Source: a virus
IMG/VR virus record: IMGVR_UViG_3300036985_000802
Coordinates: 1 to 29,630 of that record
Reading direction: 5' to 3' (one strand)
DNA length: 29,630 nucleotides
This document shows positions 284 through 29,630 of this stretch, one piece after another; within the stretch, counting starts at the first letter, position 1; each line of letters opens with the position of its first letter. Below the pieces are notes generated by a model. It searched no databases. It worked only from the letters and a program-made list of their open reading frames with translations, and was not told the origin of the DNA. The position numbers and the translations under genes were made by a program.

Positions 284-318
284 AACTTTTTATGTGGATG
301 CCTCCGACAACCCCTTTG

Positions 319-349
319 CAAATGTAATAATAATTTTCAATTATCCAAA
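319..349 (-). promoter_or_regulatory. Bacteroidota promoter for the replication operon
   Basis: On the minus strand TTTG (plus 346-349), then exactly 19 bases, then TACATTTG (plus 319-326) match the Bacteroidota consensus TTTG-N19-TAnnTTTG perfectly. Transcription would start near 312 and reach the ATG at 231. The TACATTTG core with the bases upstream (AAAATTATTAT) recurs identically in the promoter at 26415. Confidence 0.82.
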
Positions 350-447
350 TGCGTGACAAACGTGGCAACTATGGGACAACTTCAAAAGTAGTTGTCACGC
401 CTATAAGTTATACTGCTATTGAGTTACAGCAAAAGCGTGACAACTAG
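349..447 (+). CDS. Possible 32-residue peptide in the origin region (plus strand)
   Basis: ATG at 349-351 opens MRDKRGNYGTTSKVVVTPIS followed by YTAIELQQKRDN and TAG at 445-447, 12 bases before a plus-strand terminator. Two GCGTGACAA repeats form its first and last codons, so the frame may be a by-product of the repeats. No plus-strand promoter with a good -33 box is visible. Listed because a small frame followed by a terminator is notable; translation is uncertain. Confidence 0.28.
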   Translation: MRDKRGNYGTTSKVVVTPISYTAIELQQKRDN

Positions 448-459
448 ACAACTTTTTTT

Positions 460-482
460 GGGGGTGTCCCCCTTGTTTTTTT
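460..482 (+). terminator. Plus-strand terminator inside the origin region
   Basis: GGGGGTGTCCCCC (460-472), a five-pair stem with a three-base loop, is followed by TTGTTTTTTTT on the plus strand. It reads as a terminator for plus-strand transcription, although the only upstream plus-strand frame is a 32-residue one (349-447). On the minus strand the stem is followed by A, not T, so it would not stop the small-gene operon. It could also act as a structural element of the origin. Confidence 0.6.
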
Positions 483-515
483 AAAAAAGCTAGCTACCCC
501 CTATAAGAAAGCTTG

Positions 516-890
516 TCAGTTGTCACGCTCTAAGTACTGATTGTTAGTTATTCTCTCCTTAATTATCTTTAAATCTGTAGTGTTGTTACACTTGATAACA
601 TCCTCAAAGATAGAGTACTTATGTATTTCATTTGGTGGATAGAGATACTCTTTAATAGGTGCAATTATGTCATTATAAATCTTGTCAAAGTTTTGAAATT
701 GCTTGTCTACTTTTATTCCATGGATTACAGTGACATGGTCTTTATCCAGCATTCTACCTATCTGAGTAAGATTAATGTTTAACTTATACAGCTCAGAGTA
801 GATGTAATTACGTTTGTACACCAGCTCTCTTTGTCTACCTTTATCACATAGGTTATGGAGCTCAATCATGTATTTAATTTTTTTTAGCAT
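516..890 (-). CDS. DnaA domain IV-like DNA-binding protein, candidate origin-binding initiator
   Basis: The 124-residue product has at residues 16-60 the helix arrangement of the DnaA C-terminal DNA-binding domain: GRQRELVYKRNYIYSELYKL, then LTQIGRMLDKDHVTVIHGI at 41-59, which mirrors the DnaA signature IG..F.-DHTTVIHA. It lacks any AAA+ ATPase part, so it would bind DNA but not melt it alone. It is the last gene before the repeat region at about 290-530, and its stop falls in one of the four GCGTGACAAC repeats (519-528). It may recognise those repeats, or act as a regulator that binds host-type DnaA boxes. ATG at 888-890 follows TCAGAATAAA. Confidence 0.74.
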   Translation of the reverse strand: MLKKIKYMIELHNLCDKGRQRELVYKRNYIYSELYKLNINLTQIGRMLDKDHVTVIHGIKVDKQFQNFDKIYNDIIAPIKEYLYPPNEIHKYSIFEDVIKCNNTTDLKIIKERITNNQYLERDN

Positions 891-7504: not shown

Positions 7505-8437
7505 TTAGATGTAGAATGCATTATACAACACTATCTCAGAAGGGTTAGTGTAGTGAAAACCAATCTTCATGTTAGCACGAGTTCTCAATACTGGCTCAGC
7601 AACTGAGTCAGACAAGTTGATAGCTTTTAAAGCCTTAGAGTCACCTTCAGCATCAAATGCATAGATAAGGTTGTTTTTCAAAGTCAACAAAATAGTGTTG
7701 TCAGGCATACCTTCACAAGCTACTACATTGATTCCTAAGAATGTCAATCCTAATGGTAGAGTAACATAAGTCTGAGTGTTACCTTGTGCAGCTGCAAGCT
7801 CATAAGCATTAGCTACATTTGTAGACACATAAAATCTTAAGTCAGCTTTTCTACGTACAATAGAAGAAGGAGCCGCATTCAATACAGATTCCAAAACCGC
7901 TAACACATTGCCAGTAGTAACAACAGCATCATACAAACCAGTGATAGCCGCATCATAGAACATTGGAAATAAGTAGCCAGTACACAATGACAATAATGGA
8001 TCCTCAGATGCATCATTACCTTGCCATCTTAATAATTCAATATCTTGACCAATTACCATAGCCATTTCATTCCAGTAGTAAGACATAAAAGAAGGTACAG
8101 TGAAGTCACCGTTTGATCCTTTAGTCATTTGCAATGCTAAGAATGATTGCTCTAAGTCAAATTGACAAAGCTCAGCCATTGCTGACAAAGAACATACGTC
8201 AATGTCAATTGCATCTAGAACATCTGTACTTGGAGAAAATCCACAGTTGTATGTTTGTAATACTTGACCAAAAACTACATTAGCTAATTTAGTCTTAGAT
8301 TTTACACCTGGTAAAGTTCTAAAGTTGTTGGGAATGTCAGGGCTAGACAAATATGCCTTAGAGTAGAATTCCTCAGGGTTGGCTGCTAATAACGCATTTG
8401 CGTCTACATCCAAATTGAATTTTAAGTTACGATTCAT
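7505..8437 (-). CDS. Major capsid protein (probable HK97 fold)
   Basis: The 310-residue protein follows the protease-scaffold gene, the normal place for the major capsid protein, and is about the size of HK97-fold proteins of Bacteroidota phages. Landmarks are MNRNLKFNLDVDANALLAAN, an N-terminal arm of about 90 residues, LCQFDLEQSFLALQMTKGSN, a middle with RWQGNDASEDPLLSLCTGYL, and a C-terminal set RRKADLRFYVSTNVANAYEL, LTFLGINVVACEGMPDNTIL and FDAEGDSKALKAINLSDSVA typical of P and A domain strands. The 'G.P.NTILLT.K.NL..' segment is a strong capsid signature. A terminator follows at 7469-7496. Prohead maturation by the upstream protease is likely. Confidence 0.8.
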   Translation of the reverse strand: MNRNLKFNLDVDANALLAANPEEFYSKAYLSSPDIPNNFRTLPGVKSKTKLANVVFGQVLQTYNCGFSPSTDVLDAIDIDVCSLSAMAELCQFDLEQSFLALQMTKGSNGDFTVPSFMSYYWNEMAMVIGQDIELLRWQGNDASEDPLLSLCTGYLFPMFYDAAITGLYDAVVTTGNVLAVLESVLNAAPSSIVRRKADLRFYVSTNVANAYELAAAQGNTQTYVTLPLGLTFLGINVVACEGMPDNTILLTLKNNLIYAFDAEGDSKALKAINLSDSVAEPVLRTRANMKIGFHYTNPSEIVLYNAFYI

Positions 8438-9442: not shown

Positions 9443-9988
9443 ATGGTAAATATTTTAGGCTTTGAAGTACCTAACCAACTGAATGAGTTAACGGTACAAC
9501 AATTTGAAACAATTACAACTATCCATGCTGACACTGAGCTGGATGCTATTGATAAGCATTTGCAAGTTTTTGAATTCTTAGGAGTGCCAACAATAAAATG
9601 GGATGATGTTGAGATAGAAGAGTTCAAAGAAATAGTAAGAGCTTTCAATGATGTGATTGGCAAACCTGAGTTAGTGAACACACTAGAAATTGATGGCTAT
9701 ACTTATGTTGCATTTGAGGACAAGTTCAAGCTCTCAGTTAAAGACACTAAGCACATTGAGAGAATAATGAACTCCAAGCATAAAGGCTATATCTCTGAGC
9801 TGTTAGCAGTGTTATTCAAACGTACTGACTTAACTAAGGTAGAGCACTACTCAGATGCTCACATCAAGTTGAAAGCCAAATTAATTAGAGAATTGAAAGC
9901 GGAGTTAGCTGTGCCTTACCTGGTGGAGATTGGTCAAAAGTTATCTAAACACATACCTAAGGATGTCCCTACCGAAATCTTGGAGTGA
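9443..9988 (+). CDS. Tail assembly chaperone-like protein 1, on the opposite strand
   Basis: This is one of two convincing plus-strand genes in the genome. The 181-residue acidic protein begins MVNILGFEVPNQLNELTVQQ and has a helical middle (EIEEFKEIVRAFNDVIG), then a beta-rich segment DGYTYVAFEDKFKLSVKDTK and a C-terminal helix. Its layout parallels the neighbour at 9963: an 'L.E..V.QF..I' start, 'D.EIEEF..I', a 'Y.F.DK..L...' strand and a 'F.R' helix. That doubled architecture, with the second protein longer, resembles tail assembly chaperone pairs (G and GT of lambda). A TATATTTG box lies 17 bases before the start. Role is inferred. Confidence 0.6.
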   Translation: MVNILGFEVPNQLNELTVQQFETITTIHADTELDAIDKHLQVFEFLGVPTIKWDDVEIEEFKEIVRAFNDVIGKPELVNTLEIDGYTYVAFEDKFKLSVKDTKHIERIMNSKHKGYISELLAVLFKRTDLTKVEHYSDAHIKLKAKLIRELKAELAVPYLVEIGQKLSKHIPKDVPTEILE

Positions 9989-10694
9989 GATTGATGTATT
10001 GCAGTTCAAAGAGATTCGAGAGCTGTATACTATCACAGAAGTATTCAATAGAGAGATAGAGATTCTTGCTATAGTAGCTGACGTTAGCTCAGAGGAGCTT
10101 GAAGACCTTGATATTGAGGAAGTAACTGATATGATTAATGAGATTAAATTCGTTAACTCTGAGCCATCTAAGCAATACAAGCATCAACTTAATGACTACC
10201 ACTTTAAGCCATTGGATAAACTAACCATAGGTGAGTATATTGACCTTGAGTTCTATTTTTCAAAAGACTATAATCAGCACATTGGTCACATTGCATCCAT
10301 CTTTTATAGGCAAAAATCTACCAATGAATGGGGTGTGACTATCTATGAGCCTTACAACTTCTCACCTAGACAAAGATTTGAGCTATTTGAAGAGTATAGC
10401 ATCAATGATATCTATGGTATTGTACCTGAATTCATAGCTTTTAGAGAAAACTTCATGGAGACTTATGGCAATCTATTCCATGATGAGAGTGATAGTGATG
10501 AGGAAGAGGATAAACCTACCACCTCTCAGGAGTCTAAAGACTTACAGCTCAAGAAAAGTGAGTTAAAATGGGGATGGGAAAGACTAATCTATTCTCTATG
10601 CAATGAAGACCTCACTAAGTTTGAAGAGGTAACTAACCTACCACTAATTATGACCTTCAACATGTTAGCCATGAAGAAGGAATTAAACATCTAA
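9963..10694 (+). CDS. Tail assembly chaperone-like protein 2, on the opposite strand
   Basis: The start is taken at ATG 9963-9965 (MSLPKSWSEIDVLQFKEIRE); a TTG at 9930 would add 11 residues and deepen the overlap with the first gene. The frame is +1 relative to the upstream gene and overlaps it by 26 bases. The 243-residue product has an N-terminal half like its neighbour (DLDIEEVTDMINEIKFVN, YHFKPLDKLTIGEYIDLEFY), a short acidic linker (HDESDSDEEEDKP) and a C-terminal helical block LKWGWERLIYSLCNEDLTKF that resembles the T-type chaperone domain. It converges with the minus-strand gene ending at 10683. Confidence 0.6.
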   Translation: MSLPKSWSEIDVLQFKEIRELYTITEVFNREIEILAIVADVSSEELEDLDIEEVTDMINEIKFVNSEPSKQYKHQLNDYHFKPLDKLTIGEYIDLEFYFSKDYNQHIGHIASIFYRQKSTNEWGVTIYEPYNFSPRQRFELFEEYSINDIYGIVPEFIAFRENFMETYGNLFHDESDSDEEEDKPTTSQESKDLQLKKSELKWGWERLIYSLCNEDLTKFEEVTNLPLIMTFNMLAMKKELNI

Positions 10695-27151: not shown

Positions 27152-27390
27152 ATTGCTTTTGATTTGTAATAATTTTCAACTAAGTGCTCATTTTCAAGCT
27201 CCCAAAAATCTTTTAGTAAATTTATAAACCCTTTATGTGGATTTGGAATTATCCATTCTACTTCTAAAGTCCCTTTGTGGTCAGTTAAGCTAATGATTTC
27301 TTCATCAAAGCAATAGCCAACTATTTTATTTTTAACATTTTGAAGTCTCTCAGACCTCCATTGTTCTTCTTGATTGTAATTTATTATCAT
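27148..27390 (-). CDS. Small conserved-looking protein of unknown function in the replication operon
   Basis: This 80-residue protein is coupled to both neighbours by four-base ATGA overlaps (27387-27390 and 27148-27151), strong evidence that it is a real operon member. It is soluble, mixed alpha/beta in appearance and rich in aromatic residues (QWRSERL at the start, WIIPNPHKGF in the middle, KDFWELENEH toward the end). I recognise no family. Its place between the primase-helicase and a nuclease suggests an accessory role in DNA replication, by position only. Confidence 0.8.
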   Translation of the reverse strand: MIINYNQEEQWRSERLQNVKNKIVGYCFDEEIISLTDHKGTLEVEWIIPNPHKGFINLLKDFWELENEHLVENYYKSKAI

Positions 27391-29630
27391 AGTTCTGAAA
27401 ATATTATGTATCTACCTTTGTGATTTTTATCTTTTGTTATCTTATAACCTTTGTGCTTAGCATACTGAAATAACCATGTTGAGAAACGCTGTGGAGTCAT
27501 GTCTTTATAGTTGTAGTCTACCTCAAATGAACTTAATAATTCGCTGTTATAGTACATTACATCTTTGACAAGTACATTCTCACTAATGAAGTCATAGAAG
27601 TCTTTGCTAGTAGCTTGAATAAATCTTTTTGCATCGGCATTGATTCCTATTGACTTAGTAAGTCCCTCTCTTAAGTAGAGTTGTAGGTTTTTAATCATGT
27701 AATTATCAAATCTTAGCCAGTCATCTGTGCTCCATTGGTCAAATAATAGCTTACCGTAATGCTTAAGAGGTGAGTTAGTAGAGTTAAAGTATTGAAAAAA
27801 CTCAATTTCATGTCTTCTACGATCATGACTACCTCCAGCTCCCTGAATAACATAGTTAGTTGTGATCACTATTTTAGGTGACCTCTCAAATGGAATAAAC
27901 ACCTCATCTTTATTTTTGCGATTAACAGTAATTCCTTCAGACACTATCATGAATAATTGCTCAAAATTAAAGTTCTTCACTACATCATCAAATGCTAGAA
28001 TCTGAGTATCTAAGTTGACTCTTTGATATAAAAAATCTGACTTAGTAGGATTGTAGAGCTTACCATCTATTTTGACTGTCTTTCTTATGTGATTCAAAGC
28101 TGTCAACATTAAAGACTTGCCACTACCACCATTAGGATTCTCATCAATTTCTTGATCATTAAAAATAATTGCTTTTTGATTTGTCCTATCCTTATAGCCA
28201 TGAATTAAATAACCTAAAGTTGATTGTAGTGCTGATATTCTCTTTTGCTCATTATTAGATACCTTTTGCACTAGGTCATAAAAGTCATTATTAAAGTCAT
28301 TCACCAGGTGAAATTCTCTATTGATAATTTGATTCTCCCAAATGTAGCCTTCAACATCAATGTAGCTTAATATCTTAGTCTCATCCTTTGTTACTTTAAC
28401 AACACCATTCAAATAAGGTAGATAGCTATAGTCATGACCATCTTGCAACATTTTGAGACTAACTGAGTCAATCATGTTCAGGTGATTCTCAGAGAATAAA
28501 TAAGGTGACCTAGAGCAATGATTCCAAATATTAATTTGCCCTTTCTTTATCAGGTAGGTAAGCACAAAGTCTTTGATTTGATCTATAGATGATAACCTAA
28601 CTTTATTCTCAATGACTCTGACAAATGTAGGTTTCTCAGCATTCTCAGGATAAAACTTATTAAATCCATTTTTCACTAAGAAATTACTGTATTTTAAAGG
28701 CTCGATTGTTACTATCTCTTTTTTAGATACAGTCCAAAAAATATCATCACTACCACTATCCTCTTTTATATCAATTAAAATATCTGTAGTTATGTTGTGA
28801 TCCTTCTTTATTTGCTCATCATCTACACCATTCTTAACTTTTAGCTTGATTCTGTCAATGGTTAATTTATCCTCAAAATATTTGCTGTTAAAGTTGCTCT
28901 TTTTGTATGCTGACTTGATAGCTGATATCATTTCAGAGTGAGTAAAGTCTTCATTTGTTGTGTACTTGTTATAAAGATATTGCTCAGCTACATCTTGATT
29001 AATTCCATAATCTGACAAACAACAAGCTAGTTCAAAAATAAAATGATTTCTTGAGCCATCTGAAAAGGAAGTTTTAAATTTAAACTTTTCAATTAGTTCT
29101 AGCTTCTTATTCTCATCTTGAAGGATGCACAGTGGTGGCTTCTCAATGTATTCAAATCCTTTATCTTGTGTAATTCCTTCAAATACTAAACAAAACTCAT
29201 TAAAATACACCTCAGGGTCATAAGATTCAAAGCATACTCTACTGACATCTTGATTCTTTGAGTCAAAATATTCTGATTTAAAGTATTCAGCATAGGCTAA
29301 AAACCGTCTCTTATGTTCTACAGCTGTTGACTCAGGTATTCTTATCACAGCTTTTAGTCCATTGCCACCAGGTGAAGTGAAAACTATTATAACATAAGGG
29401 TCATTAATCAATCTTTCTCTTTCAGATTGCATTATCTCAGTAGATGGATAACCATCAAAGTCTAAGACACAAAGCCCTGAGTGCTCAATCAATCCTTTGG
29501 CAGTTCTCTCTGAGAAAGTACCATTGAACATAATTGCATTGAGTTCTTTTTTAGATGCTGAATATCTTGGGTCTTTCTTGTCTACTGACCTAATTAGATT
29601 GATTTTTTCTCTAAGTTCCTCAGTTCCTAA
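27387..29630 (-). CDS. Replicative primase-helicase (BT4734/VirE_N-like domain plus SF3/D5-type helicase)
   Basis: This is the main part of the 777-residue replication protein; its first residues are at 1-231. In full-length numbering, residues 60-175 resemble the BT4734/VirE_N primase-like domain: a CVLDFDG acidic motif near 84-90, SPGGNGLKAVIRI near 116-128 and DVSRVCFESYDP near 158-169. A helical PriCT-like stretch follows near 220-275. The C-terminal half is an SF3/D5-type helicase, with Walker A NPNGGSGKS near 528-536, Walker B ILAFDDV near 574-580 and a sensor strand KIVITTN near 616-622. A winged-helix-like tail (MTPQRFSTWLFQYAKHKGY) ends the protein. It probably primes and unwinds phage DNA at the nearby origin. 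Its stop overlaps the next start by four bases (ATGA at 27387-27390). The helicase call is firm; the primase activity is inferred from domain resemblance. Confidence 0.88.
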   Translation of the reverse strand, partial: LGTEELREKINLIRSVDKKDPRYSASKKELNAIMFNGTFSERTAKGLIEHSGLCVLDFDGYPSTEIMQSERERLINDPYVIIVFTSPGGNGLKAVIRIPESTAVEHKRRFLAYAEYFKSEYFDSKNQDVSRVCFESYDPEVYFNEFCLVFEGITQDKGFEYIEKPPLCILQDENKKLELIEKFKFKTSFSDGSRNHFIFELACCLSDYGINQDVAEQYLYNKYTTNEDFTHSEMISAIKSAYKKSNFNSKYFEDKLTIDRIKLKVKNGVDDEQIKKDHNITTDILIDIKEDSGSDDIFWTVSKKEIVTIEPLKYSNFLVKNGFNKFYPENAEKPTFVRVIENKVRLSSIDQIKDFVLTYLIKKGQINIWNHCSRSPYLFSENHLNMIDSVSLKMLQDGHDYSYLPYLNGVVKVTKDETKILSYIDVEGYIWENQIINREFHLVNDFNNDFYDLVQKVSNNEQKRISALQSTLGYLIHGYKDRTNQKAIIFNDQEIDENPNGGSGKSLMLTALNHIRKTVKIDGKLYNPTKSDFLYQRVNLDTQILAFDDVVKNFNFEQLFMIVSEGITVNRKNKDEVFIPFERSPKIVITTNYVIQGAGGSHDRRRHEIEFFQYFNSTNSPLKHYGKLLFDQWSTDDWLRFDNYMIKNLQLYLREGLTKSIGINADAKRFIQATSKDFYDFISENVLVKDVMYYNSELLSSFEVDYNYKDMTPQRFSTWLFQYAKHKGYKITKDKNHKGRYIIFSEL
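29490..29630. repeat. Terminal direct repeat, right copy
   Basis: This is the second copy of the 141-base terminal repeat, differing from the left copy only at 29616. Joining the two copies restores one uninterrupted reading frame, which independently supports circularity. Confidence 0.95.

Follow-up and report, generated by a model that had tools for sequence, protein, structure and literature searches.

The window, that is, the whole 29,630-base stretch of viral DNA analysed here, carries near its left end a cluster of short repeats (boxes) lying between the promoter of a replication gene, rep, and the gene of a small DnaA-like protein. The rep product is a primase-helicase of 777 aa whose gene runs over the join of the record ends. 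The features of the locus are as follows, with positions in the window and strand:

516-890, minus: 124-aa DnaA domain IV-like protein, which does not determine the boxes
519-528, minus: box 1, GCGTGACAAC, overlapping the ERDN-stop of the DnaA-like gene; left edge of the exchanged cassette
512-518, minus: secondary TGACAAG adjoining box 1, a tandem pair in many relatives
453-511: spacer with A/T homopolymers between the box groups; candidate unwinding region
447-452, plus: half box GACAAC adjoining box 2, seen in the sequence
435-444, plus: box 2, GCGTGACAAC, a motif match
401-434: core between the inner inverted boxes, minus-strand consensus CtgaAAgtCAATacca...TatAG
391-400, minus: box 3, GCGTGACAAC, a motif match
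375-380, plus: half box GACAAC, seen in the sequence
351-360, plus: box 4, GCGTGACAAA, 1 bp upstream of the -33 element of the rep promoter
319-349, minus: rep promoter TTTG-N19-TACATTTG, assigned from its sequence
232-318, minus: rep leader RNA, candidate attenuator, with a GGGG/CCCC + T-run stem and TTCTTGCTA/TAGCAAGAA arms
1-231, minus: N-terminal part of rep
27387-29630, minus: remainder of rep, with BT4734-like_N primase, PriCT_1, DUF5906 helicase and C-terminal winged helix
27390-27557, minus: coding sequence for winged-helix residues 722-777 of Rep, the putative box reader
27420-27422, minus: codon of Rep His767, at the wing tip

Exact matches to GCGTGACAAM (GCGTGACAA) number four in the 29,630 bases, all within 351-528 and alternating in orientation, as the first-pass annotation had described (351-360 plus, 391-400 minus, 435-444 plus and 519-528 minus), and its statement that this is the sole cluster in the window holds for exact matches. 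When one mismatch is permitted, two extra matches appear, at 7697 and 21477, and 100 shuffles searched with the same tolerance gave a mean of 1.27 matches and a maximum of 5. The extra GACAAC cores that it had listed are present at 306-311, 375-380 and 447-452, accompanied by TGACAAG at 512-518 (minus), and the cluster is indeed flanked by the rep promoter (349-319, minus) and the DnaA-like gene. The suggestion that the cluster is a phage-specific initiator site unlike the host DnaA box gains support, in that no TTATCCACA, and hence no DnaA box of the TTATNCACA type, was found in the 29,630-base window, and in related phages the repeats are kept at the equivalent place. Two stop codons had also been described as lying under boxes: box 519-528 does encode the last codons (ERDN-stop) of the minus-strand gene at 516-890, whereas the KRDN-stop belongs to a mere plus-strand frame, no plus-strand ORF of at least 50 aa ending there.

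The rep gene is found uninterrupted in L001. In the window the record ends, 1-141 and 29490-29630, are alike at 99.3% without an exact terminal repeat, so that joining them gives a circle of about 29.5 kb, and a circular or terminally redundant genome is probable. Domain searches recovered BT4734-like_N (E 2e-20), PriCT_1 (E 1e-5) and DUF5906 (E 2e-4, under its cut-off), which places an AEP primase and a helicase domain within one protein. A structural model of the C-terminal 98 residues of Rep forms a winged helix (pLDDT about 90 from fragment residue 21) in which His767 occupies the tip of the wing and Gln744 begins the recognition helix. The full-length model is of low confidence (pLDDT 62), and its fold matches, which include the SaPI5 primase-helicase structures 7ola and 7om0 as weak matches, are used as a hint alone. 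No PDB chain matched Rep in sequence at E up to 1, a fold search with the C-terminal domain gave no convincing match (best E 0.019), and no P4 alpha origin-binding domain stood among the 50 fold matches listed for that domain. A prophage search with the Rep sequence alone found none, and an alignment of Reps used as query found distant relatives, mostly in Bacteroidota MAG contigs. Upstream of rep, TTTG-N19-TACATTTG conforms to the Bacteroidota-type promoter consensus.

The 124-aa protein carries a helix-turn-helix of the Bac_DnaA_C type (PF08299; E 3e-7, just under the Pfam cut-off), and with this protein as query nine viral contigs were found. Five of the nine share this Rep (type A) and carry three or four copies of the same boxes. 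In L003, L005 and L008 a DnaA-like protein of 63-79% identity is followed by the repeats GTGTAAAG and ACTTTACAGT and by a type B replication gene (Prim-Pol and DUF3987 with a C-terminal HTH), while L009 has a third kind of cassette (type C). About 180 loci were collected with the three replication genes as queries. Among those with a DnaA-like identity of at least about 55-57%, boxes of types A and B are each confined to rep genes of their own type, and the box type always accords with the downstream replication gene. On the tree of DnaA-like proteins the cassette type changes 11 times, as against a mean of 11.4 for shuffled labels, and supported branches force at least six changes. The best pairs lose their homology 7-10 nt ahead of the stop codon of the dnaA-like gene, and in one of them (L036 and L104) it picks up again at the end of rep; the DnaA-like proteins of these two loci are identical over residues 1-122, the last two residues alone differing and being encoded by each cassette's box 1. 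So the boxes (as putative origin), the promoter, the leader and rep pass between phages as a single cassette, whose left edge is box 1 in the last codons of the dnaA-like gene. The box over that stop codon, which had been read as a binding site placed over a gene end, instead marks the edge of what is exchanged.

The arrangement is that of an iteron origin, with several short repeats clustered beside a presumed initiator gene. Type A loci share an order in which forward boxes (one or two) are followed by about 75 bp containing A/T runs, then by reverse boxes (again one or two), the core, a forward box, a reverse box and the promoter. Comparison of 51 distinct type A relatives shows the distance between the inner reverse and forward boxes (GTCA to TGAC) fixed at 44 nt, around CtgaAAgtCAATacca...TatAG, and a PSSM of this type A core found no significant match in the type B and C origins. 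The A/T content rises to 0.78 at 321-360 and homopolymer runs occupy 453-511, in a genome that is A/T-rich as a whole. Because nearly all genes lie on one strand, the GC skew, which is negative almost throughout the window, neither supports nor excludes an origin at the boxes. Inside the candidate origin, at 460-482 (plus), there is a perfect GGGGGTGTCCCCC hairpin followed by TTGTTTTTTT, kept in close relatives and resembling a terminator on the strand opposite rep transcription. Elsewhere in this otherwise minus-strand genome, a pair of neighbouring ORFs of 181 and 254 aa on the plus strand occupies 9443-10694, the 181-aa one, which comes first, having no Pfam or PHROG match.

The box sequence tracks the Rep clade, and on comparative grounds the repeats are specific to their cognate initiator. 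For type A we used 54 distinct Reps with clear boxes and a tree built without the C-terminus. A His at the wing position (767; NHKGR) goes with GTGAC boxes and any other residue there (N, S, A, V, Q or M) with ATGAC boxes in 54/54, and this column is the only perfect one among 856 columns of the type A alignment, the runner-up reaching 51/54. Wing residue and box base each change five times on the tree, and the independent pairs on well-supported branches are concordant in four cases out of four. Close relatives fit the rule, as in L280 (Gln, ATGAC) and L269 (His, GTGAC), and so does L352, whose Rep was obtained later and has 52% identity (His and Gln, boxes CGTGACAAC). A parallel rule, Gln744 with GACAA and Arg744 with GACGA, is only a suggestion, which fits most loci and involves one clade change, with exceptions in the L271 group. 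L271 and L276 have the same Rep C-terminus and different mixes of TGACGCA and TGACAAG boxes upstream of rep, so the 3' half of the box would be read loosely or by another residue.

In the type B family the helix residue that follows Ser/Thr-Arg predicts the box base (Q-A, R-G, T-T, V/I-A) in all 31 cases; it is again the only perfect column, and the three independent pairs are all concordant. Here too close relatives agree with the rule (L304 with Gln and A; L300 and L301 with Arg and G). The most telling pair is L108 and L109, whose Reps differ at 11 of 748 residues, five of these within the last 13: the recognition helix of the HTH is SRQQIINLIKKIEEK in one and SRTQIQRLINKIDEK in the other, and the boxes go from GTGTAAAG to GTGTTACC, every box being altered and the layout kept. 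The covariations were first spotted by eye in a few sequences and further relatives then fetched; on well-supported branches the independent changes (4 + 3) are concordant in 7/7 (sign test, p ~0.016). Below about 50% Rep identity the residue-base code fades, the boxes being different or not found and the GTGAC/ATGAC rule inapplicable. Among such distant Reps, L396, L399, L398 and L369 have other candidate boxes upstream of rep (CGACACTAA, TATGTCGA and CGACACAA), which are possibly a further part of the code.

The repeats very probably serve a Bacteroidota phage as its replication origin. From a comparison that took in hundreds of related phages, we consider it likely that the four boxes are origin iterons, placed upstream of the rep promoter and bound by the C-terminal winged helix of Rep. 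The winged-helix model and the covariation both support this domain as the reader. Copies of Rep, likely as a multimer, would bind the boxes through it, and two residues, Gln744 where the recognition helix starts and His767 at the tip of the wing, would read bases of GCGTGACAA; binding on either side of the A/T-rich spacer and the 44-nt core would open the DNA, and Rep would then load its helicase domain and prime synthesis. Opening, helicase loading and origin activity are suggested by the domain content and by the SaPI Rep, Cch2 and PICI replicons. Rep may also repress its own promoter by binding box 4, which is 1 bp away from the -33 element.

Other readings of the boxes have to be set against this one. 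One, supposed from the sequence of the window, takes the DnaA-like protein as initiator and the boxes as its equivalents of DnaA boxes; in its favour are the helix-turn-helix of the protein and the position of the gene beside the boxes in most relatives. Yet the recognition motifs EKDHVTVMHG, NKHHATVLNG, DKHHATVLNG and DKDHVTVMHG are each found with both box sets, the L036/L104 pair, identical over 122 residues, has unlike boxes, and boxes occur in loci with no DnaA-like homologue (L108 and L111, with B boxes) or with the gene not adjacent (L053). Among the relatives compared, the boxes therefore do not track the DnaA-type HTH but covary with the Rep C-terminus; we reject the protein as the reader and regard this role for it as highly improbable. 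Linkage in a cassette would by itself yield co-inherited box and rep types, and the boxes might on that account bind a host or third phage factor. Linkage cannot, however, explain why exactly one column in each Rep family tracks the base without exception, nor why the nearly identical Reps of L108 and L109 diverge mainly in the recognition helix, with all their boxes altered, and within type A and B cassettes no further gene precedes rep; we give this alternative very little credence.

The main rival accepts the same winged helix as reader and makes the boxes mere operators for Rep autoregulation, with the origin elsewhere. Box 4 does abut the -33 element, and in every cassette the boxes all lie upstream of the rep promoter, but the outer box is about 170 bp further upstream, beyond the A/T-rich spacer, the 44-nt core is rigidly kept, and related primase-helicases use a like domain for origin iterons (PMC7581432). 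We therefore hold a purely regulatory role to be unlikely, and an origin read by Rep remains the explanation we favour.

Our best model, by analogy, is that Rep works like SaPI5 Rep, Cch2 and P4 alpha. Membership of this kind is not claimed, because no sequence homology of Rep to the solved members was found (PDB, E up to 1, with weak fold matches) and its origin lies upstream. The C-terminal domain of Cch2, from SCCmec, binds short origin repeats, and SaPI5 Rep and Cch2 resemble the system proposed here in being a self-contained helicase or primase-helicase with a C-terminal domain for such repeats; in those systems, however, the origin is downstream of rep, not upstream of its promoter (PMC7581432), and Rep differs further in its BT4734-like primase domain and in matching no PDB chain in sequence. 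In PICIs, two iteron sets flank an A/T-rich region, as in this phage, and the Pri-Rep-ori units of P4 alpha and PICIs likewise join a primase and initiator helicase to a cognate iteron origin, although the PICI origin is 3' of rep and the proteins are different (PMC6092414). In the PLE satellites of Vibrio cholerae the DNA-binding domain of the initiator, RepA_N, covaries with the origin and is swapped with it as a module, which was proposed as an escape from an origin-directed nuclease (PMC8263062). That parallels the exchange described here, with the differences that RepA_N is an N-terminal domain of another kind and that the PLE shuffle domains inside one repA, whereas here whole unrelated rep genes are exchanged and the reading residues undergo point changes (PMC8263062). 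C-terminal winged helices of AEP primases from mobile elements had been predicted to recognise origins (PMC5862659); the residue-to-base covariation lends support to this published prediction for two families and specifies which residues would do the reading.

As far as the literature searched shows, two things are new, namely the rules that link residue to base in two families and the finding that unrelated ori-rep cassettes are exchanged at one junction. They replace the plausible guess of a DnaA-like initiator with a specific assignment to the Rep C-terminus, explain the exchange of unrelated replication genes beside one conserved gene, provide a rule for locating origins in uncultured Bacteroidota phages, and supply natural altered-specificity pairs (L108/L109 for type B; L269/L280 or L083/L209 for type A). 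A broader reading, which we put forward tentatively and with our doubts slightly outweighing our confidence, is that the C-terminal DNA-binding domains of two unrelated families of phage initiators carry a readable residue-to-base code, which in type A lies in residue 767 of the wing and residue 744 of the helix and in type B in the helix residue that follows Ser/Thr-Arg. Natural phages would then switch replicon identity in one of two ways, through substitution of one or a few residues, matched by a change in every iteron, or through a swap of the whole ori-rep unit at a fixed junction, perhaps as an escape from origin-directed interference or incompatibility.

Between promoter and rep, the leader looks like an undescribed transcription attenuator RNA. 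Its arms, TTCTTGCTA/TAGCAAGAA in the window, covary among relatives (TGACACTG/CAGTGTCA, ACTTGCGT/ACGCAAGT and others) and surround CCTTTTCCCC and a T run, with GGGG upstream, and the leader is common to rep types A and C and some of type B, these types of rep being unrelated to one another. Folded on its own, the leader reaches a minimum-energy structure of no greater stability than shuffles do, so that covariation is the only evidence for its structure. Rfam gave nothing at gathering scores for the leader and origin region, and weak matches, such as one to a miRNA family, were dismissed as chance. The interleaving of GGGG...CCCC and T run with covarying X/X' arms recurs in the window, L187, L208, L209, L346 and others, and a partial second X' copy lies ahead of the rep ATG in the leader. 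A second leader class, with a-b-a'-b' and a T run in pseudoknot-like order, occurs in L005, L108, L059, L118, L150 and L239; L005, L108 and L059 are among the leaders in which a third a copy adjoins the rep start codon (e.g. ATGCAG / CTGCAT / ATGCAG).
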